Below are positions 53,300-64,000 of a stretch of DNA of 64,000 bases, piece by piece. Every line of letters starts with the position of its first letter. The stretch's first letter is position 1. The stretch lies in NCBI RefSeq assembly GCF_000015505.1, contig NC_008760.1, positions 79,748 through 143,747 of the forward strand. The letters are read 5' to 3'. The notes below the pieces were generated by a model. The model did not search any database and was not told where the DNA came from. It worked only from the letters and a program-made list of their open reading frames with translations. This DNA is from Polaromonas naphthalenivorans CJ2. GTDB taxonomy: Bacteria > Pseudomonadota > Gammaproteobacteria > Burkholderiales > Burkholderiaceae_C. A program made the translations under genes and the position numbers.

Positions 53300-54429
53300 T
53301 ACTATTTAGCCTTCAAAGATATAGATGTTATCCAACTGAATCCAGTAAGACTCTGCATGCGTTCATGATCTGATTCGAGTGATCGCAAGCCTTTGCTGAG
53401 CGCCTTGTCCGCAGCCTCCAGGCTGGCAAAGGCAGTGTTGCCGATACAGTCCTCGCGCAGTGCATCCCAGATGTGCTCGGCTGGATTGATCTCTGGGCTG
53501 TAGGGCGACAGCAAGACCAGACGGATGTTGTGCGGAACCTCAAGTTCTTGGGCGATGTGCCAGCCCGCTTGGTCCATCACCATGACGATGTATTCAATCG
53601 GGGTGACGTTGTGAGACGGTGGACAAGAACATTGACATCGTGTGCGCGTTCACCCACGGCAGAATCAGGCTATCCATCCCTGCATCGTGTGGACTGACCG
53701 CAGCAAAGGCATAACTGAATTTGCGCAGGAGCCGAGCGCCGACCACCGGACGCACTCCAGCAGGAGCCCAGCAACGTCTGGGCTTGCCCAAAAGACCAAA
53801 ACGCCCCTCGTCTTGAAACATCAATCGAACGCTGCGGCCCTGTTTAGCCTGGCGCACGACCTCTTGGCGTACCAGAGTGCGGAGTTTTTTTAAAGGCGTC
53901 CTGTGCCTGCATGTCTGCCTTTGGATGACGTGGTCGGGGTATGACTTTGCGCCAACCATGGCGGTCGAGCATTCGATACACGGTAGACGATGCCACCGCA
54001 CTTCCCACCTTTTCCTCCATCGCCTGTTTGATCTCGCTGACATGGAGCAGTCCGCCAGCCTGGGCCTTTGTCGTAAACGGAGCCAGTAGTCGACCTTCTT
54101 CTGCTGGACTTAAGTGCTGATGATGCCGACCACCACGACCGCGCAAGTCAAACAGGGCATCACCCTCCTTGGCCCAACGCGAATGGATGACATGGACAGT
54201 GGCCGTTGACCAGCCCAGAAGTTGGGCTATCTGAGCCGCCGTACTGCCTAACGTGGCGCGAATGAGAACGCACTGAATGCGTTGGTACTCGGCGTGACTG
54301 TTGGCTCGCTTGAGTCGATCCGCCAAAGCCGCAATCGTTGGCTTGTCACACGAGATCAGATTCTTCATGCTCGGCTCCTGAAGGGATGGAAGCCATCATA
54401 CGATCTAATCCATTGAATGCAAAGTGGTA
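53300..54429 (-). mobile_element. IS630-family element inside IS701
   Basis: Ends TACTATTTAGC (53300) and the complement of TACCACTTTGC (ending 54429) with TCA on both sides (53297-53299, 54430-54432). It carries one disrupted transposase gene and splits the right IS701 copy. Confidence 0.75.
53302..54368 (-). pseudogene. IS630 transposase, two frame breaks
   Basis: The first frame has the HTH part (KPTIAALADRLKRANSHAEYQRIQCVLIRATLG, QIAQLLGWSTATVHVIHSRW). Frame change 1 is at an A7 run (T7 on plus, 53885-53891) before LRTLVRQEVVRQAK. Frame change 2 is near 53590, where one extra base separates SQRHPD from YIVMVMDQAGWHIAQELEVP (catalytic Asp) and PYSPEINPAEHIWD (catalytic Glu). The first could be programmed slippage; the second looks like mutation. 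Confidence 0.8.
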
Positions 54430-54597
54430 TCAGACGTTCCGAGCAGCTCTGCTGGGCACCGCTGTACCTGCAGGGACTCCTGGGAGCGGGAGCGCGCAAG
54501 AGTGTCGAGCCCATGGCCGAACGCGTGTGCCCCGGGCAGACGCAGCAACTCCACCACTTCGTGTCGACGTCGCCGTGGTCGACTGCCCCCTTGGAGC
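54430..54597 (+). mobile_element. IS701-type element, right copy, middle part
   Basis: Continues the transposase start (RSEQLCWAPLYLQGLLGAGARKSVEPMAERVCPGQTQQLHHFV) up to the IS4 end at 54598. The remaining two thirds of this IS701 copy are missing from the other side of IS4. Confidence 0.85.
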
Positions 54598-55999
54598 CAT
54601 CCCATTACACACAAGTCACCCATCGTTGAACTGCCGGGCATAACGGGCACCCTCGACGAAGACGGCAATCTCCTGCATGCCCAGCCAAATCGTCCTGGCG
54701 CCCGGTTCACCATCGTGCTTTCTGCCCAGAAAGCCGCCGCGCTGGGCAATCAGGCGAACCACGGTGTTGAGCGTGGGCGTCTGCCGGGGCACGGGCTTTT
54801 TGTTCAGGATAAACGCCGCTCGCCACTCGTCGGGCTCGAACACCAGGTCGGCCGGTAAATTGGGCAAGGTGCGCCCCAGCCGCATCAGGCGGTTGATGCG
54901 CCAGGCAATCACCATGTACAGCGCCAGCGCGGTCTGCAGCCGCTCGGTGTCGGCCAGTTGCAAGCGCTCAACACGGCAGCCTTCCTTAAGCACCAAGAAA
55001 AATAACTCAATTTCCCACCGAGCGCGATACCAATCGACGAGTTCCACTGCCGCTGCCAGCGTATTCGCCGTCCGGTTGGTCAGCAGCCGCCAGACCACTG
55101 GCTTGGCGCCTGCGGGGGCGTTGACTTGCGAGGCAATGAGGCAGGTCACTTCGAGCTCTCCGCCCTGGCGGTCGGGCAACACCACGCGCTGGGCGCGCAC
55201 CTCCTGCTCGACCGCGCGGGCCTTACGCCCGCGCCCTGCGGGCATCTCAAAGCAGATATGCCCCAGCGGCGTGCTAGCCATGACAGCATCCCACAGCTTG
55301 CCCCCTTCGGGCACCACCCGGTTGTGCTGGCAGCGCACCAGGTAGTCGGCCGCATGGTTCATCTTGCGGGCCATCACCAGCAGCGCCAGGATGTCCGACT
55401 CGCGGTCGCCGATGCACACATGGCGCGTGCCGGGCAACTCTGTAGCCTGCTCGGCGATACGCTCATAGCTCTCTATCCAGCGCACGCTTTCGAGCACGCC
55501 GCCGCGCGGCGCATCGCTCGTCTTGAACTCGCGCGCCCACGTCCAGGCGTTCATCACCCCCAACGGCTCGTGCTGGGGCGTGACCACGTAGGTCGGGTGC
55601 AAATACAGCCCACGCTGAGCCTCGTAGCTCAGCGGCCCCAGGCCCGTTATCGCCTGGCCGTTGTAGTCCAGTTCGGTGGTGTCCTGCAGGCACAGCACCA
55701 CCGCGTGCTCGCGGATGCGGGCCATCGCCGCCTGGCGGTGGGCCGTCATCACCTCTTCAAAGCTGACCTGCTCGTTGCGCAGAAACCGGTAGGCCGCTGC
55801 CGTCTCGGCCCAGTTCTCGCACGCTCCCGGAATACTTGCTCCGGGCTTTTGTCCCAGCCGCTCGGCCAGCAGCACGGCGCGCCGGTTCAGACGCGGGTCG
55901 CCCAAATCAATCGTCTCGAATTCCTGTTCCGCCCAGCCCATGCACTCGCCCCTTTTGTCATTGAGCTGCCTATGTTACGAACTTGTGTGTAATGGGATG
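54598..55999 (-). mobile_element. IS4-family (Tn5-like) element, second copy
   Basis: Perfect 18-bp ends CATCCCATTACACACAAG and CTTGTGTGTAATGGGATG. No target duplication: the left flank is IS701, the right flank is the usp start. The element therefore sits at a rearrangement joint rather than at a simple insertion. Confidence 0.88.
54616..55941 (-). CDS. IS4-family transposase (copy 2)
   Basis: 441 residues, Tn5-like: MGWAEQEFETIDLGDPRLNRRAVLLAERLGQKPGASIPGACENW, DTTELDYNG, GDRESDILAL and WYRARWEIELFFLVLKEGC supply the DDE residues. Same length and order as copy 1 but clearly diverged in sequence. Intact. Confidence 0.92.
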   Translation of the reverse strand: MGWAEQEFETIDLGDPRLNRRAVLLAERLGQKPGASIPGACENWAETAAAYRFLRNEQVSFEEVMTAHRQAAMARIREHAVVLCLQDTTELDYNGQAITGLGPLSYEAQRGLYLHPTYVVTPQHEPLGVMNAWTWAREFKTSDAPRGGVLESVRWIESYERIAEQATELPGTRHVCIGDRESDILALLVMARKMNHAADYLVRCQHNRVVPEGGKLWDAVMASTPLGHICFEMPAGRGRKARAVEQEVRAQRVVLPDRQGGELEVTCLIASQVNAPAGAKPVVWRLLTNRTANTLAAAVELVDWYRARWEIELFFLVLKEGCRVERLQLADTERLQTALALYMVIAWRINRLMRLGRTLPNLPADLVFEPDEWRAAFILNKKPVPRQTPTLNTVVRLIAQRGGFLGRKHDGEPGARTIWLGMQEIAVFVEGARYARQFNDG

Positions 56000-56006
56000 G
56001 GCTGAG

Positions 56007-56527
56007 CCGTCATAAGCCAGCAAGATTCGCTTGTACATGGCAGACCTTCAAGTGTTAAGAGGGCTGGCGATTACTCCAGCGTGAAGCCGATCTTGAGCGA
56101 CACCTGCCAGTGCGCCACCTTGCCATCGACCACATGGCCGCGCGTCTCGGTGAGGGTGAACCACTGGATGCTGCGCACCGTTTCATGCGCCCTGGCAATT
56201 GCCGTGCTCACGGCCTCTTCAATACTGACGCTGGACGAGCGGGTCAGCTCCAGCAGCTTGTAGACATGGGGTTGCTCATCATATGGCTCCCGGAGTGGAT
56301 CGGCCTGTCCAGCGAAATCTTACGCGCTGTGCGATGGAACTACAAACACACAGCCACATGGGCAAGCAGCGTTGGCGAGGTGATGCTCGATTCCATGAAG
56401 GTCAGAAAGATGGGCAGCATATGTCCCCTACACTGAGCCACCTTGGCAACGCTTGAGCTACCCGCTAAAAAAGCGGCATGAAACCCAACCTGGAGCTACT
56501 CAATGATCGAAGCCCTGGTAGCGGGCA
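56007..56527. repeat. Duplicate of the usp-dodecin-ssb segment
   Basis: Direct near-copy of about 21121-21638: the first codons of the Usp gene (56007-56038, minus), a dodecin gene, the spacer with CCGCTAAAAAAGCGG and the first bases of the SSB-like gene. It starts at the IS4 end and stops inside the MocR gene, whose 3' end it replaces. Confidence 0.85.
56071..56278 (-). pseudogene. Dodecin gene, second copy, broken near the start
   Basis: Body is in frame ([61 protein letters not shown]). At the start, GAGCAACCCCATGTC has two extra C relative to GAGCAACCATGTC in the first copy, so MSN is out of frame with the rest and no other start exists. Complementary to copy 1, which breaks elsewhere. 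Confidence 0.75.
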
Positions 56528-57593
56528 GTCGCTTGGCTTGTCGGAACACCGGCACCAGCTCGGGCGGCAGCACCAGGTAGCCCAGTCGAAGTTGCGGGGA
56601 CAGCGCCTTGGAAAAAGTGCCGATGTAGATCACGCGGCCGTCGGTGTCAATCGACTGCAGCGCGTCGATGGGGCGCTGGCCATAACGGAACTCGCCGTCG
56701 TAGTCGTCCTCGACGATCCAGGCGTCGTGGCGCGCTGCCCATTGCAGCAGGTCCAGGCGCCGTCCGATGGGCAACACCCCTCCCAGCGGGAACTGGTGCG
56801 ATGGCGTCACGTACGCCAGGCGGACACGCTCGTCCTGGGAAAGGCTGGCGGTATCCAGGCCATGCTCGTCCACCGGCGTGGTCAAGCACCTGGCGCCGGT
56901 TGCCTCAAAGCAGCGCCTTGCCATCAGGTAACCGGGATCTTCAAAGACAAATGCATCCCCGGCATCGAGCAGCAGCCGCGCGCACGGGTCGATGGCCTGC
57001 TGCGATCCATGCACCACCAGGATCTGCTCGGCCTCGCAGGCCAGTCCCCGGGCACGCCGCAAATAGCCCTGCAGGGCGCTCCTGAGCCAGGCGTCACCTT
57101 CGGGCGGGACGTAGTAGAGGCTGCGCTGCTGACGCAGCAGTTCGGCCTGGTAGGCACGCCGCCAGACCAGGGTCGGAAAGTCCCGGGAAGCCACCGCGCC
57201 GTACAGGAAGTCGAAGCGGACAGGTTCGGCGTCAGGCAATGCCGGCATGCCGATTCCCGTCAGGCGGCGCCCAAACCCGGACAGGGATGGCGCACGCCTG
57301 GCGCGCCGGCTTGCATTGGTTCCGGGTGCTGCGGGCGCAGCCAGCGGGCTGGCCACCCGGGCAACCCGCCCCATGGCCGTGACAAGGAAGCCCTCGGCCG
57401 CCAATTGCTCGTAGGCGGCGGTGACGGTGGTGCGCGACACCGCCAACTCGGCAGCCAGGGATCTCGTGGAGGGCGCGCGTGCGCCCGGGACCAGCGTGCC
57501 GTCGGCAATCTGATTGCGCAGCAGGTCGTAAATTCGGCGTCCGGCCCCGGTGGCGCCGGGGTGGCAGTCGGTTGGCTTGCGAGACTGGACCAT
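56496..57593 (-). pseudogene. MocR/PdxR-type regulator, C-terminus replaced
   Basis: GntR winged helix (GRRIYDLLRNQIADGTLVPGARAPSTRSLAAELAVSRTTVTAAYEQLAAEG) fused to a fold-type I aminotransferase-like domain (PPEGDAWLRSALQGYLRRARG, EDPGYLMARRCFEATGA, IVEDDYDGEFRYGQRPIDALQS, YIGTFSKALSPQLRLGYLVLP, with the PLP Lys in TFSKAL). About 115 C-terminal residues are missing; the frame runs into the duplicated ssb segment after FRQAKRLP. It is divergent from paiB, a common pairing. Confidence 0.85.
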
Positions 57594-57647
57594 GAATAAT
57601 GATGAAAACTGGATCTTTTAATTGTGCCGGTTGTGGGCGACAGTGAC

Positions 57648-58163
57648 ATGGATTACCAACTCATCCATTCATTCACGATGTACATCCCCGACCACTTTGC
57701 TGAAACCCGGCCTGACGAACTCGGCCGCATCATCCGCGAGCACCCGCTGGGCATGCTCGTCACACATGGGAGCGCCGGACTCGATGCTGACCACATCCCG
57801 TTCGAGTTCGATGCTGGCGTGCAAACGCCTGGCGTTCTTTCGGCCCATGTGGCCCGTGCCAACACGCTGTGGCAGCGCTGCCCCACGGGCACGCCGGTCA
57901 TGGTCGTGTTTCGCGGTGCCGAGGCCTACATCTCGCCCAACTGGTACCCGAGCAAGCACGAGGCGCATCGCCAGGTGCCGACCTGGAACTACGAGGTGGT
58001 GCATGCGCATGGCACGATCACCATCCATGAGGATGAGCGCTTCGTTCGCCGCATCGTCGCGCGCCTGACACGCCAGCACGAGGCGGCCGAACCCAGGCCC
58101 TGGAAGATGGGGGACGCCGCGCCCGAGTACATCGACACCCTGCTGCGCAGCATCGTGGGCATC
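57648..58163 (+). pseudogene. PaiB-type FMN-binding regulator, 3' end lost
   Basis: MYIPDHFAETRPDELGRIIREHPLGMLVTHGSAGLDADHIPFEFD, GVLSAHVARANTLWQR, VVFRGAEAYISPNWYPSKHEAHRQVPTWNYEVVHAHGTI and YIDTLLRSIVGI match the PaiB/FMN-binding negative regulator family through about residue 170. The last 30-40 residues are replaced by the IS982 end. Start could also be 57678. Divergent from the MocR gene. Confidence 0.82.
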
Positions 58164-59100
58164 CCGGCAATGGTGCAACTTGATGCGAGGTTTGACAGCT
58201 TGCAGGCAGTAAGCCACGATGCCCGCCATGAGGTTGACGGCGAAATTCATCAGCGAGCGATGCCGGGTGTGCTCGATCTGGCACAGGTTCTTGAGTTCAT
58301 CGAAGACCGTTTCGACCAGTGAGCGTTTGCGCAGCAAGGCGCGGTCAAAGTCAGAGCGCACGACCTCCTTCATGTTCTTGCGTACCCGCGTGACGAGTTC
58401 GATGCCCTGGTCCTTCATCTTTTGCGCAAACTCCTGGCCAATGTAGCCCTTGTCGGCGTAAACCGTGCCGAACAGGCTTGACGCGATGGCCAGCAATCCC
58501 TTGCGGCTCAATCGATGTTGCCCGGCGTGACCCGGATGGCCAGCAGTTCGCCCTGATGGTTGATGACCGCGTGCAGCTTGAAGCCATAAAACCAGCCGGT
58601 GGAGGATTTGCCGCGCTGGGCGAGGCCCTTGAAAACGCGGTGACGATTGATGCGCAGGTTGTGGCAAACGGCCAGCGGCGTTGAGTCGGCAATCGAAATT
58701 CCGGTGCAGGCGCCCTTGAGCGCGTCGAACAAGGCCGCCAGGATCACGGCGCAGCGCGGCATCAGCTGCACGAAGCGGGTAGACGACAGGCGCTGGGGAA
58801 ACTCCGCTTTCATGAAGCGGCAGACAACGTCCAGGTAGAACGCCTTGAACTGGCGGGCCCGCATCCTGTGGAACAACACCACAATGGTGCTCATCTCGGA
58901 CAGAGACATCAGGCCAGGCCGATTGCGCCGTCGTTTGCCGATGTCACCCTGAGCACTGGAGTGCTCCAGCATGCCTTTGTCCAGCAAGGGTTCGAACTGC
59001 TGGCAGAAATCATCAATCAGGCAGAACAGCTCGGTGGCTTTGTCCATGGCGCGGCATCTCCATAGGTATCGGTTTGCCCCTATTTTTGACCCAGAACCTG
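58164..59100 (-). mobile_element. IS982-family remnant
   Basis: Region between the cut PaiB gene and the aceE end, holding one broken IS982 transposase. Exact ends were not resolved. Confidence 0.6.
58167..59047 (-). pseudogene. IS982-family transposase, frameshifted
   Basis: MDKATELFCLIDDFCQQFEPLLDKG, LMSLSEMSTIVVLFHRMRARQFKAFY, ADSTPLAVCHNLRI (Asp) and GFKLHAVINHQGELLAIRVTPGNID, then a stop. The next frame continues RKGLLAIASSLFGTVYADKGYIGQEF (second Asp) and KRSLVETVFDELKNLCQIEHTRHRS (Glu). The break is at about 58513. Confidence 0.82.
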
Positions 59101-59205: not shown

Positions 59206-61884
59206 TCAGTCCTGGGCCAGCAGCGTGAGGGCGGCCTGCGCAATGCTGGATGCATCGACGCCAAAGAAGGCACGCAGTGCCGCACGCGTGTCACTCCGAC
59301 CAAAACCGTCAGTGCCCAGGGTGAGGTAGTCGCGCCCATCGGGCACGAAGGCACGCACGCTTTCCGGCACGGCACGGACATAGTCGGTCGCGGCAATGAT
59401 GGGGCCGCTGCTTGCGCGCAGCATGTTGGCAATGAAAGGCACCGATTCGCTCCTTTTCCCCGCTGGCGTGTGCTGGGTGCTGGCTTGGCCTTCGCGTGCG
59501 AGTTCGCTCCAGCTCGTCACGCTGAACACGGTCACCGAGATGCCCTGCAGGGCCAGTTGCTGCGCGGCCTTGATCACCTCAAGAAGAATGGCCCCCGACC
59601 CCATCAAGGTCACTTCTCTGGATATTTCAGCGGCATGGCCCTCGTTGTTCATTGGCAAATAGCTATTGAATTTATAGCACCCTTGAATTACATCGTGCTC
59701 CACCCCGGCGGGTAGGGTGGGCTGGGCGTAGTTCTCGTTCATCATGGTGATGTAGTAGAAAATGTCCCTTTGCTCCACCATCATCTCTCGCATGCCGTGG
59801 TCGATGATGACGGCCAGCTCACCGGCAAACGCCGGGTCGTAGGCCTTGCAGTTGGGAATGGTGGCGGCCACCAGGTGGCTGGTGCCGTCCTGGTGCTGCA
59901 GCCCTTCGCCGCCCAGCGTGGTCCGGCCCGAGGTGGCACCGAGCAAAAAGCCGCGCGCGCGCTGGTCGGCCGCTGCCCAGATCTGGTCGCCCACGCGCTG
60001 AAAGCCAAACATGGAGTAATAGATGTAGAACGGCAGCATGGCCAGGCCATGCACGCTGTAGCTGGTGCTTGCTGCCGTCCAGCTGGCCAGCGCGCCCGCC
60101 TCGGAAATGCCCTCTTCCAGAATCTGGCCGTCCATGGCCTCGCGGTAGCTCAGCACCGAGCCGATGTCCTCGGGCGCGTAGCGCTGGCCGACGCTGGAGT
60201 AGATGCCGACCTGCTTGAACAGGTTGGCCATGCCAAAGGTTCGGGCCTCGTCGGCCACGATCGGTACGATCCGTTGGCCCAGGGCCTTGTCCTTGAGCAG
60301 GTTGCCCAGCATGCGCACAAAGGCCATGGTGGTGCTCATCTCCTTGCCGTCGGCCTTGAGGGCGAACTGGGCGTAGCTGGCAATCTCGGGTACAGCGACC
60401 TGCTCGCAGGTGGTGTAGCGCTTGGGCAGGTAGCCGCCCAGTTTCTGGCGCTGCGCATGCAGGTATTGCATCTCCAGGCTGTCGGCTGGCGGCTGGTAAA
60501 AACTCAGCGAGGTGACCTGATCGTCCGTCAAGGGCAGCTGGAAGCGATTGCGAAACGCAATCAGGTCGGTCTCGTCAAACTTCTTGTGGCTGTGCGTGGT
60601 CATCTTGCCTTGGCCCGCGCTGCCCATGCCGTAGCCTTTCTTGGTGTGCGCCAGGATCACCGTGGGCTGGCCCTTGTGCTGCGCAGCAGCGGCGTAGGCG
60701 GCGTAAATCTTCACCATGTCGTGGCCGCCACGCTTGAGGCGGTCGATCTGCTCGTCCGTCATGCCTTGGGCCAGCGCGGCCAGGGCCTCGTTCTGGCCAA
60801 AGAATGTTTCGCGGTTGTAGCGCCCATCCTTGGCGGCAAACGTCTGCATCTGGCCGTCCACCGTGTTGGCAAAAACCTTGGCGAGCGCGCCGCTCACATC
60901 GCGTGCAAACAGACCGTCCCAGTCGCTGCCCCACACCAGCTTGATGACGTTCCAGCCCGCACCGGCAAAGAGCTGCTCGAGTTCGTCGATGATGCGGCCA
61001 TTGCCGCGCACCGGGCCGTCGAGCCGCTGCAAGTTGCAGTTGACCACCCAGACCAGGTTATCCAGCTTTTCACGCGCGGCCAGCGTCAAGGCGCTCATCG
61101 ATTCGGGTTCATCCATCTCGCCGTCGCCAAACACGCCCCACACCTTTCTGGCCGAGCAATCGAGCAGCTGGCGGTGCGTGAGGTAGCGCATGAAGCGCGC
61201 ATGGTAGATCGAGCTGATCGGGCCGATGCCCATCGAGCCGGTGGGAAACTGCCAGAAATCGGGCATCAGGTAGGGATGCGGATAGCTGCACAGGCCGCGT
61301 GGTCCCTGCCCGGTGGTGGCCGCCGGAGCTGACAATTCCTGCCGGTAGTAGCTCAAATCCTCGACGTCCAGTCGGCCTTCCAGATAGGCCCGTGCATACA
61401 CGCCCGGCGAGCTGTGCGGCTGGAAGAACACCAGGTCGCCCAGGTGCTCACGCCCCGGCGCCTCGCAGCGGGCATGAAAAAAATGGTTGTAGCCCGTCTC
61501 GAACAGGTCGGCCGCACTGGCGTAGCTGGCAATGTGGCCGCCGAGCTCGCCATAGGCCTGGTTGGCCCGCACCACCATGGCCAGCGCATTCCAGCGCACG
61601 AGCGAAGCCAGGCGCTCCTCCATGGCCAAGTCACCGGGAAACACGGGCTGCTGATCGACCGCAATGGTGTTGACATAAGGCGTGCCGCGTGCCGGCTGCC
61701 AGGCGATCTTCGGGTCGCGGCTCATCGCATCGAGCATGTCAAGAATTTGCCGCGTGCGCCCGGGTCCGGACGCCTGCAGCAAGGACATGAGTGCATCTCG
61801 CCATTCGGCGCTTTCTGCCGGATCAGGATCGACGGGCTCAACGGAGCGAAAAGGGGCAAGTTGCTGATGCATGGGAGGATTCAT
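59206..61884 (-). CDS. AceE-type 2-oxo-acid dehydrogenase E1 (homodimeric)
   Basis: About 892 residues of the homodimeric PDH E1 family: TGYNHFFHARCEAPGREHLGDLVFFQPHSSPGVYARAYLEG, the thiamine-diphosphate motif GVFGDGEMDEPESMSALTLAAREKLDNLVWVVNCNLQRLDGPVRGNG, and SYREAMDGQILEEGISEAGALASWTAA. It decarboxylates a 2-oxo acid and passes the acyl group to an E2. No E2 (aceF) or E3 gene is adjacent, unlike a pyruvate dehydrogenase operon. Orphan paralogues of this kind beside Lrp regulators include MdeB, the 2-oxobutyrate dehydrogenase E1 of Pseudomonas. With acdS 1.1 kb away, 2-oxobutyrate is the likely substrate (inference). Start 61884 or 61872. Confidence 0.88.
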   Translation of the reverse strand: MNPPMHQQLAPFRSVEPVDPDPAESAEWRDALMSLLQASGPGRTRQILDMLDAMSRDPKIAWQPARGTPYVNTIAVDQQPVFPGDLAMEERLASLVRWNALAMVVRANQAYGELGGHIASYASAADLFETGYNHFFHARCEAPGREHLGDLVFFQPHSSPGVYARAYLEGRLDVEDLSYYRQELSAPAATTGQGPRGLCSYPHPYLMPDFWQFPTGSMGIGPISSIYHARFMRYLTHRQLLDCSARKVWGVFGDGEMDEPESMSALTLAAREKLDNLVWVVNCNLQRLDGPVRGNGRIIDELEQLFAGAGWNVIKLVWGSDWDGLFARDVSGALAKVFANTVDGQMQTFAAKDGRYNRETFFGQNEALAALAQGMTDEQIDRLKRGGHDMVKIYAAYAAAAQHKGQPTVILAHTKKGYGMGSAGQGKMTTHSHKKFDETDLIAFRNRFQLPLTDDQVTSLSFYQPPADSLEMQYLHAQRQKLGGYLPKRYTTCEQVAVPEIASYAQFALKADGKEMSTTMAFVRMLGNLLKDKALGQRIVPIVADEARTFGMANLFKQVGIYSSVGQRYAPEDIGSVLSYREAMDGQILEEGISEAGALASWTAASTSYSVHGLAMLPFYIYYSMFGFQRVGDQIWAAADQRARGFLLGATSGRTTLGGEGLQHQDGTSHLVAATIPNCKAYDPAFAGELAVIIDHGMREMMVEQRDIFYYITMMNENYAQPTLPAGVEHDVIQGCYKFNSYLPMNNEGHAAEISREVTLMGSGAILLEVIKAAQQLALQGISVTVFSVTSWSELAREGQASTQHTPAGKRSESVPFIANMLRASSGPIIAATDYVRAVPESVRAFVPDGRDYLTLGTDGFGRSDTRAALRAFFGVDASSIAQAALTLLAQD

Positions 61885-62005
61885 TCCAAGGGTGTCAATA
61901 GGTGTACTACTGTAGAAAGAAAATGGCAGAATTTGCAGCTTGAATAGATACATGATCGGCCATATAGCGGCACATCATGCCGTCCAGATAAGGTTTTGAA
62001 GCATT

Positions 62006-62221
62006 ATGGAACTCGACAGCATTGATCGAAAGATATTGAACGAACTGCAGGCCGATGCCAGCGTGTCGAATGTGGAGCTTGCCCGGCGTGTCCACCTCTC
62101 GCCGTCGCCTTGCCTGGCGCGTGTCCGCGCTCTGGAGGCGCAGGGCTTGATCCGGCAGTACGTTGCCTTGCTCGACGCCAAGCAGTTGGGCTTGCCCTGC
62201 ATTGGCATCTCAGTGTCGTAA
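62006..62221 (+). pseudogene. Lrp/AsnC regulator, HTH only (truncated)
   Basis: 71 residues: MELDSIDRKILNELQADASVSNVELARRVHLSPSPCLARVRALEAQGLIRQYVALLD is a complete Lrp winged helix, but the RAM effector domain stops at GISVS. Full-length Lrp proteins are about 150 residues. Divergent from the E1 gene, as MdeR is from its targets. It may still bind DNA as a short protein, but it cannot sense a ligand or assemble normally. Confidence 0.75.
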
Positions 62222-62311
62222 ATCTATCGGCGACGAGAGCGCTGGCTCACAGAGAGTGATCTGCCGCAACTGGCGATGGCCAAGCCCAGAAATTTGGTCC
62301 ATGCGACTGAT

Positions 62312-62776
62312 TCATACGGGAATGGCCGTTGTCTCGAACACTTCCTTGAGGCATACAAATGTTCGTACCTGCCGCACGCCCGGCAGGCTTACAAGCTGCG
62401 CGCTATGCATTTCATTGAACGAGTCGATGCCCCGGATTCGTAATTTGATGAAATAGTCGAACTCACCCGTGACCAGTTGTACTTCGAGGCAGCCAGTCAG
62501 GGCTGCAGCAGCCTTCTCGAACGCGGTAAACGATTCGGCAGTCGAGCGGTCCAGCACCACGCCGATGATGACCAGGCCGTTGTAGCCCAGCGCACGCGGG
62601 TTCACCAGCGCCACGGTTTTGCGGATCAACCCCAGTTCCTTGAGCTTGGCAATGCGGCGCGAGCAGGCGGGCGGGCTGAGGTTCGTTTTTTCGGCCAGGT
62701 CGATGTTGGGCAGCGAGGCGTCCTGCTGCAGCAGCTTCAGCAATTTGCGGTCAATCCGGTCGAGTGTGATTTCCAT
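62312..62776 (-). CDS. acdR: Lrp/AsnC regulator, AcdR-like
   Basis: 154 residues: MEITLDRIDRKLLKLLQQDASLPNIDLAEKTNLSPPACSRRIAKLKELGLIRKTVALV (HTH) and a full RAM domain (GYNGLVIIGVVLDRSTAESFTAFEKAAAAL, VTGEFDYFIKLRIRGIDSFNEMHSAQL). It lies divergently from acdS across a 230-bp AT-rich region, the known acdR-acdS arrangement, where AcdR activates acdS in response to ACC. Intact. Confidence 0.85.
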   Translation of the reverse strand: MEITLDRIDRKLLKLLQQDASLPNIDLAEKTNLSPPACSRRIAKLKELGLIRKTVALVNPRALGYNGLVIIGVVLDRSTAESFTAFEKAAAALTGCLEVQLVTGEFDYFIKLRIRGIDSFNEMHSAQLVSLPGVRQVRTFVCLKEVFETTAIPV

Positions 62777-63006
62777 GGATGTATTGGATAAATATTGCGT
62801 GAATTTAAAAAATATCGAAATAAATTTCTTAAAAATTTAATAAAAAGATTATTGGATGATATTTCATCGTGAAAGTTTGCAATTAATTTCTGACAGATCT
62901 GGCTACGATTTGATCACGACTGCGCAACACACTTCAGCCAACCATGCCCTCCTTTTTTGCGGCCATCACAGTCCACGCAATGGGGCTTTCACCGGAACCA
63001 CGATCC
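62777..63006. promoter_or_regulatory. acdR-acdS divergent control region
   Basis: 230 bp, much AT-richer than the genes on either side, especially 62780-62880 (A- and T-runs such as TTTCTTAAAAATTTAATAAAAAG). This is the usual kind of site for Lrp-type wrapping. TTGCAA (62877) and TACGAT (62904) are 21 bp apart, too far for a standard promoter, so I assign no -35/-10. Confidence 0.6.
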
Positions 63007-64000
63007 ATGCCACTCACGCTCAATCTCCAGAAGTTTCCCCGGCATTCGCTGACGTTCGGGCCCACGCCCATTCAGCCGCTCAAGCGCCTGAGCGCCCACC
63101 TGAGCGGCAAGATTGAGCTCTACGCCAAACGCGAGGACTGCAACAGCGGCTTGGCCTTCGGCGGCAACAAGACCCGCAAGCTGGAGTACCTGATTCCCGA
63201 GGCGCTGGCGCAAGGCTGCGACACGCTGGTCTCTATTGGCGGCATCCAGTCCAACCAGACGCGCCAGGTGGCGGCGGTGGCGGCGCACCTGGGCATGAAG
63301 TGCGTGCTGGTGCAGGAAAACTGGGTGAACTATTCCGACGCCGTGTACGACCGCGTCGGCAACATCGAAATGTCACGCATCATGGGTGCTGACGTGCGCC
63401 TGGATGCGGCCGGTTTCGATATCGGCATTCGCCCGAGCTGGGAACAGGCCATGGACGATGTGCGCCAGGCCGGAGGCAAGCCCTTCGCCATTCCAGCTGG
63501 CTGCTCCGAACATCCTTATGGTGGGCTGGGCTTTGTCGGCTTTGCCGAAGAGGTGCGGGCGCAGGAAGCCGAGCTGGGCTTCAAGTTCGACTACATCGTC
63601 GTCTGCTCGGTCACCGGCAGCACGCAGGCCGGCATGGTGGTTGGTTTTGCCGCAGATGGTCGTGCCGACCGGGTGATAGGCATTGATGCCTCCGCCAAGC
63701 CTGAGCAAACCAGTGCGCAAATCCTGCGCATTGCGCAGAACACCGCCAGGCTGGTCGAGCTGGACCGTGACATCACTGCGAAAGACGTGGTGCTCGATAC
63801 CCGCTACGGCGGGCCCGAGTACGGCCTGCCGAGCGAAGGCACGCTGGAAGCCATCCGCCTGTGTGCCCGGCAGGAGGGCATGCTGACCGACCCGGTCTAT
63901 GAAGGCAAGTCCATGCACGGCATGATCGACATGGTGCGCCGCGGTGAGTTCCCCGAGGGTTCCCGGGTGCTGTATGCCCATCTGGGTGGTGTACCTGCGC
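63007..64000 (+). CDS. acdS: 1-aminocyclopropane-1-carboxylate (ACC) deaminase (runs off the window)
   Basis: 331 residues present; the family is about 338, so only a few codons are missing at the right edge. PLP-binding Lys55 lies in [11 protein letters not shown], with [21 protein letters not shown] and [12 protein letters not shown] typical of the family. The residues that separate true ACC deaminase from D-cysteine desulfhydrase are present: Tyr-Glu at 298-299 (VYEGKSMHG) and Leu326 (YAHLGG). It converts ACC, the ethylene precursor of plants, to 2-oxobutyrate and ammonia. ATG 63007 is the family start. Confidence 0.95.

Follow-up and report, generated by a model that had tools for sequence, protein, structure and literature searches.

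Does a bacterium that breaks down 1-aminocyclopropane-1-carboxylate (ACC) also make use of the carbon? ACC is the plant ethylene precursor and ACC deaminase is a much-studied bacterial trait that lowers plant ethylene; the 2-oxobutyrate that the enzyme forms is usually merely named as a product. The question is raised by the right end of a 64,000-nucleotide stretch of Polaromonas naphthalenivorans CJ2 (NC_008760.1, positions 79,748 to 143,747; the whole stretch is called the window here), where the ACC deaminase gene acdS lies close to a gene for a homodimeric E1 resembling AceE of pyruvate dehydrogenase. We consider it quite likely that this is an ACC-catabolic cluster, in which the 2-oxobutyrate released by AcdS would be oxidised by an MdeB-type E1 using borrowed AceF and Lpd.

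An acdS gene and an AceE-like E1 at one locus

Genes were called with a codon-scored caller; calling by longest open reading frame places a group of long frames on the strand opposite the E1 gene. The features at the right end of the window are as follows.

59206 to 61881, minus strand: MdeB-type (TIGR03186) homodimeric E1 of 891 amino acids, a predicted 2-oxobutyrate dehydrogenase E1 (profile match, tree and residues)
61882 to 62005: spacer separating the E1 gene from the divergent, truncated Lrp gene, probably with the E1 promoter and a regulator site (judged by position only)
62006 to 62221, plus strand: what is left of the E1-side Lrp regulator, truncated to 71 of about 155 amino acids
62312 to 62776, minus strand: AcdR-like Lrp regulator, divergent from acdS (profile match and identity in relatives)
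62777 to 63006: acdR-acdS intergenic region, A+T-rich (38% GC)
63007 to 64000, plus strand: acdS, ACC deaminase (TIGR01274 and residues), its 3' end cut by the contig end

The acdS frame opens at 62944; the family model and the PDB alignment begin near 63019, and the ATG at 63007 is the likely start. The product scored 631.3 bits against TIGR01274 (cut-off 392). In an alignment with the solved enzyme of Pseudomonas (1rqx) it has Lys51, Tyr294, Glu295 and Leu322, all of which we take to be diagnostic of ACC deaminase. The match ends at model position 326 of 337, with about 11 codons beyond the contig end. Because the contig (G000:C4, 143747 bases) ends together with the window, the last acdS codons and any downstream neighbours are out of view. 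The E1 frame is open from 59206 to 61953 on the minus strand, with its likely start at 61881, and is intact. It is under purifying selection, with a nonsynonymous divergence (dN) of 0.069 and a synonymous divergence (dS) of 0.62 against its Rhodoferax ferrireducens OTU1 counterpart (locus L129). No E2 or E3 gene lies beside it within the window. An initial annotation, made from the sequence alone, had described just this arrangement, namely acdS with its Tyr-Glu and Leu residues, a divergent AcdR-like Lrp gene, a second, truncated Lrp gene and an orphan homodimeric E1, and these identifications hold.

Pairing of acdS with the E1 recurs across genomes

The window E1 scored 1440.5 bits against TIGR03186 (cut-off 1408.3), and this cut-off defined the E1s counted in other genomes. 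Among 250 genomes of the same family, 244 had an AceE-like match, 92 an E1 over the cut-off and 35 an acdS gene. Such an E1 was present in 29 of the 35 acdS genomes versus 63 of the 215 genomes without acdS (Fisher p = 2e-9). The two genes were at most 5 kb apart in eight of the 35 acdS genomes, the window genome included (7/34 without it), against a random expectation of about 0.07. Five of these eight close pairs are same-strand acdS-E1 arrangements with 48-186 bp between the matches, and one further pair in the family is 21.5 kb apart. Outside the family, overlapping samples of 399 genomes of the order and 398 of the phylum yielded 32 further acdS genomes, all of which were searched for the E1. 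It was found over the cut-off in six, at 1.3 kb from acdS in one (G404) and 8.8 kb in another (G384).

Pairs were also present in named records. Among the best 80 named loci, some of them on short contigs, acdS lay within 5 kb of the E1 in at least five: Rhodoferax ferrireducens OTU1, Polaromonas CF318, Pseudomonas kilonensis, Burkholderia stagnalis and B. arboris. Six regions from a plasmid collection were examined as well. Variovorax paradoxus VAI-C has acdS, AcdR, a DUF3100 gene, the E1 (matching in three pieces), an E2 and an E3 in a row, B. cenocepacia CMCC(B)23006 has AcdR-acdS-E1, and no acdS match was found beside the E1 in the other four. Altogether four layouts were seen: AcdR-acdS-E1 runs, acdS/AcdR/Lrp/E1, Lrp/E1/AcdR/acdS, and the acdS/AcdR/DUF3100/E1/E2/E3 row of V. 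paradoxus VAI-C. The pairing, which the initial annotation had seen in one strain, is thus an association that recurs across lineages and not at one locus, which moves the reading beyond a single strain. In one genome (G208; L075, 10904-12655) a reverse transcriptase gene (PF00078, 584 amino acids, retron-like by eye) stands between acdS and the E1-side Lrp gene.

The history of the link was read from E1 trees with FastTree local support values. The main tree had 161 rows, 30 of AceE and 131 of its paralogues; on a tree of 162 rows the acdS link requires eight changes, at least six of them by well-supported branches, and some may be losses. One clade of seven E1s is linked to acdS throughout (support 100); its members come from B. 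cenocepacia, from five genomes of the family and from one genome of a different family in the same order.

Could the E1 instead be a general-use 2-oxobutyrate E1, serving methionine, threonine or cystathionine breakdown, whose place beside acdS is incidental in this strain? In 21 of the 29 same-family genomes with both genes, over 5 kb separates the two or they are on different contigs; this and the 63 family genomes that carry the E1 but not acdS speak for such a role. So do the surroundings of 110 paralogue E1 loci (20 further rows fell outside the scan for mdeA): 61 have an Lrp gene of their own divergent from the E1, and in 13 the methionine gamma-lyase gene mdeA adjoins the E1. Beyond mdeA, as seen from the E1, every one of these 13 loci has an Lrp gene, and four have a second one adjacent to the E1. 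We nevertheless regard a general-use role with incidental placement as unlikely, given the excess of close pairs over expectation, the four layouts and the seven-member clade found only beside acdS. Moreover, none of nine acdS-E1 paired genomes that were searched had a methionine gamma-lyase over the NF005695 cut-off, the one model of this enzyme that was searched. The mdeA gene itself was identified by NF005695 at one locus (L094, 734 bits, cut-off 666) and elsewhere by similarity to the L094 gene. With methionine gamma-lyase and ACC deaminase beside the same E1 type, what the two enzymes have in common is their product, 2-oxobutyrate.

Other neighbours of the paralogue E1s were seen at a few loci. 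Divergent beside the E1 of L083 (5314-8174) are a Cys/Met pyridoxal phosphate (PLP) enzyme and a cystathionine beta-synthase-like gene; a cystathionine gamma-lyase there was considered as a third source of 2-oxobutyrate and not counted, since no model cut-off was reached. L106 and L108 have a threonine-synthase-like PLP protein and a TctC binding protein near the E1.

The E1 stands apart from housekeeping AceE

Two profiles separate the window E1 from the AceE of the same genome. Against the aceE model TIGR00759 (cut-off 859.9) the window E1 scored 1274.4 bits, less than against TIGR03186. The scores of the operon AceE are reversed, with 1421.7 bits to the aceE model and 1275.7 bits to TIGR03186, under its cut-off. 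The housekeeping aceE-aceF-lpd operon is separate, on another contig (G000:C9), and unlike its AceE the window E1 is not in an operon with aceF and lpd; an E2 gene adjoins 29 of the 30 AceE rows of the tree.

The split between AceE and the paralogues had a support of 99, and the window E1 fell outside the AceE clade. Judged by profile and tree, it is not the housekeeping AceE. It joins the acdS-linked E1 of Rhodoferax ferrireducens OTU1 (L129) and the E1 of G062 (support 100). The next branch out is a Rhodoferax E1 beside mdeA (support 95), and the next again a set of seven rows, three of them linked to mdeA and two to acdS (support 99), so that acdS-linked and mdeA-linked E1s intermingle. The mdeA-linked E1s of Pseudomonas RIT623 (1588 bits, over the TIGR03186 cut-off) and Pantoea Cy-639 fall in the same large clade as the window E1. 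E1s beside mdeA serve here as stand-ins for Pseudomonas putida MdeB, whose sequence is not among the tree rows. Placement on a tree with AceE and MdeB, as the initial annotation had asked for, was accordingly obtained in part: the window E1 is apart from AceE and among mdeA-linked E1s, with MdeB itself outside the tree.

Differences near the active site follow the same division. Eleven alignment positions differ between the AceE and paralogue clades, and two of these, Val192 and Gly141, adjoin catalytic positions. Val192, presumably at the thiamine site of E. coli AceE, is invariant in the 30 AceE rows; of the 131 paralogues, 128 have Gly, two have Ala and in one it is missing. Gly141, likewise present in all 30 AceE rows, is Pro in 124 of the 131, Ala in five and missing in two. 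A smaller residue at Val192 would make room for the extra methyl group of 2-oxobutyrate. No alignment column separated the 14 acdS-linked from the 13 mdeA-linked E1s at 85%. Position 401 of E. coli AceE (residue 424 of the window E1), which we take to be part of a mobile active-site loop, carries Gln in 105 of 131 paralogues; 26 of the 30 AceE rows have Glu there.

A second AceE isozyme, oxidising pyruvate under different conditions, would account for the family membership and for the aceE-model score over its cut-off. It would also suit nine positions of E. coli AceE (106, 140, 177, 230, 407, 522, 571, 599 and 640), presumed to have active-site roles, all of which are kept in the window E1. 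Such an isozyme is very improbable, since the window E1 lies outside the AceE clade, scores higher with TIGR03186, has Gly at Val192 and Pro at Gly141, and shares its genome with a full pyruvate dehydrogenase operon. A 2-oxoglutarate dehydrogenase E1, as the NCBIfam name of TIGR03186 and the RefSeq product name would have it, is hardly credible when the genome has a normal sucA-sucB-lpd set, the acdS and mdeA neighbours make 2-oxobutyrate and AceE is the closest solved protein. Such E1s appear in RefSeq plasmid records as mdeB, alpha-ketoglutarate dehydrogenase, and this family name looks like a mistake for alpha-ketobutyrate dehydrogenase.

Proposed E2/E3 supply and fate of propionyl-CoA

A PF00198 search of the genome returned two E2 genes, aceF of the pyruvate dehydrogenase operon and sucB beside sucA and lpd. 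Since AceF and SucB are the only E2s, with a single one of the AceF type, the E2 and E3 would have to be borrowed, as the initial annotation had supposed. The window E1 must use AceF, use SucB or act without an E2, and AceF is the likely partner. The N-terminal Asp7, Asp9, Glu12 and Trp16, presumably part of the E2-docking region of AceE, are kept in the window E1. Genes for the conversion of propionyl-CoA to succinyl-CoA are probably present: a biotin carboxylase, a carboxyltransferase, MeaB and methylmalonyl-CoA mutase are encoded together at G000:C9:2.506-2.514 Mb, the carboxyltransferase matching a methylmalonyl-CoA decarboxylase subfamily at 797.6 bits, under the model's cut-off. The alternative route by 2-methylcitrate synthase was set aside, as no match over the cut-off was present in the genome and the best match was citrate synthase.

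The proposed pathway would begin with AcdR turning on acdS when ACC is present. AcdS would open ACC to ammonia and 2-oxobutyrate, which the MdeB-type E1 would decarboxylate on thiamine diphosphate. The housekeeping pyruvate dehydrogenase would lend its E2 (AceF) and E3 (Lpd) to receive the propionyl group and yield propionyl-CoA, which a carboxylase and methylmalonyl-CoA mutase would convert to succinyl-CoA.

Plasmid-borne relatives with E2 and E3 genes nearby were also noted. A 204-kb Burkholderia cepacia plasmid carries mdeB-aceF-lpdA followed by an Lrp gene. pBPHY02 of Paraburkholderia phymatum carries mdeB with ilvB and has unannotated aceF- and lpd-like stretches nearby.

Regulators and flanking genes

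The frame at 62006-62221 is called truncated because its 71 amino acids cover only positions 11-72 of the 164-position Lrp model. The E1-side Lrp is whole at the equivalent place in L069, of the same genus, and in L129, and by this comparison the frame is what remains of the E1's own regulator. Purifying selection on the E1 is consistent with a recent loss of that regulator, without dating it. Among the 110 scanned loci, the 61 divergent Lrp genes lie at most 450 bp upstream of the E1, at a median distance of about 150 bp, and their products are 29-42% identical to the window AcdR. As the other 49 have none within 450 bp, an intact neighbouring Lrp was not taken as defining an MdeB-type E1. 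The window AcdR is itself 91% identical to its counterpart in L069 and 57% to that in L129. The AcdR-acdS-E1 runs (L070-L074) showed no further Lrp gene close to the E1. AcdR as a direct regulator of the E1 was considered and rejected, there being no evidence for it. The initial annotation had drawn a parallel with Lrp control of MdeB; a divergent Lrp gene is indeed common among the relatives, but AcdR need not control the E1, whose own Lrp is truncated here. In the acdR-acdS intergenic region a short palindrome-like sequence was noticed, by eye only, near 62854-62869.

To the left, the E1 is bordered by an IS982 piece (58508-59047) and then by other insertion-sequence genes. At 56496-58322 is a divergent pair, a PdxR-like MocR regulator and a flavin mononucleotide-binding PF04299 gene. 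The regulator matches 5-330 of 448 model positions and is apparently cut short, the 3' end of the PF04299 gene seems to enter the IS982 piece, and the pair is apparently disrupted by insertions. Adjacent insertion-sequence genes occupy 53302-55941: short frames at 53302-53583 and 53594-54368, IS630-like by eye, with winged-helix domains within 53844-54368, and an IS4 family transposase at 54616-55941.

Strength of the proposed role

The reading of the cluster as a 2-oxobutyrate module, with 2-oxobutyrate as the predicted E1 substrate, is well supported by comparison. Two outcomes that the initial annotation had named as refuting it, an E1 grouping with housekeeping AceE and an adjacency confined to this strain, were looked for and neither was found. 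Besides the separation of the two genes in most family genomes with both, several observations weigh against it. An E1 over the cut-off is missing from six of the 35 acdS genomes of the family and from 26 of the 32 outside it, among them 21 of 22 genomes belonging to other classes of the phylum, and the higher co-occurrence of the two genes may partly reflect larger genomes. Eight of the 110 scanned paralogue loci have an E2 gene adjoining the E1, so this type of E1 is not always an orphan. The window E1 is without an intact Lrp of its own, and its expression may be altered. The acdS-linked E1s are known from sequence only, the tree lacks MdeB itself, and the family name points to another substrate.

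For the wider proposal, the balance tips slightly in favour: a dedicated ACC carbon-scavenging pathway may exist in several beta- and gammaproteobacterial lineages, with an MdeB-type E1 repeatedly recruited to acdS (accompanied in one record by an E2 and an E3 of its own), and the Val-to-Gly change next to the thiamine site may mark 2-oxobutyrate E1s as against pyruvate E1s. Bacteria with the pairing may use ACC for carbon as well as nitrogen. If this is true, a recurrent 2-oxobutyrate E1 beside acdS would predict which acdS strains are able to live on ACC carbon and could explain such growth where it is reported. The comparison also suggests that the name alpha-ketoglutarate dehydrogenase given in RefSeq records is misleading.

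According to the excerpts of the literature consulted, growth on ACC carbon is an already published phenotype. Nascimento et al., in their acdS survey, cover AcdR and other neighbouring genes and treat the products as potential nitrogen and carbon sources; the word dehydrogenase does not occur in the main text (PMC4048297). Neither ketobutyrate, oxobutyrate nor propion- occurs in the main text of PMC10356760, nor pyruvate dehydrogenase or propionyl in that of the review PMC5827301. No description of an acdS-linked E1 was found in the literature searched, mostly titles and the opening lines of abstracts. In the available text on a Pseudomonas donghuensis transcriptome, an aceE/mdeB gene and mdeA are induced by tomato exudate, which was read as methionine catabolism (PMC10256816).

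Comparison with known systems

Like housekeeping AceE, the window E1 has the sequence family, the catalytic residues and the N-terminal residues presumed to dock E2; unlike AceE, it has no aceF-lpd beside it, belongs to a separate clade and carries Gly at Val192 and Pro at Gly141. Like the acdR-acdS loci of Proteobacteria, the cluster has a divergent Lrp-type AcdR and an ACC deaminase with diagnostic residues, and unlike these loci as surveyed in the main text of PMC4048297 it has a predicted product-handling E1 beside acdS.

The closest parallel is with the mde system. As in the mdeRAB genes of P. putida, an AceE-like E1 over the TIGR03186 cut-off stands beside Lrp genes and a 2-oxobutyrate-releasing PLP enzyme. 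The P. putida MdeB acts on 2-oxobutyrate, and the mde operon was reportedly described by Inoue et al. in 1997. In the window the PLP enzyme is ACC deaminase and not methionine gamma-lyase, the intact neighbouring Lrp is AcdR, and the E1-side Lrp is truncated. Judged by its genes, the window cluster is an MdeB module in which ACC deaminase replaces methionine gamma-lyase.

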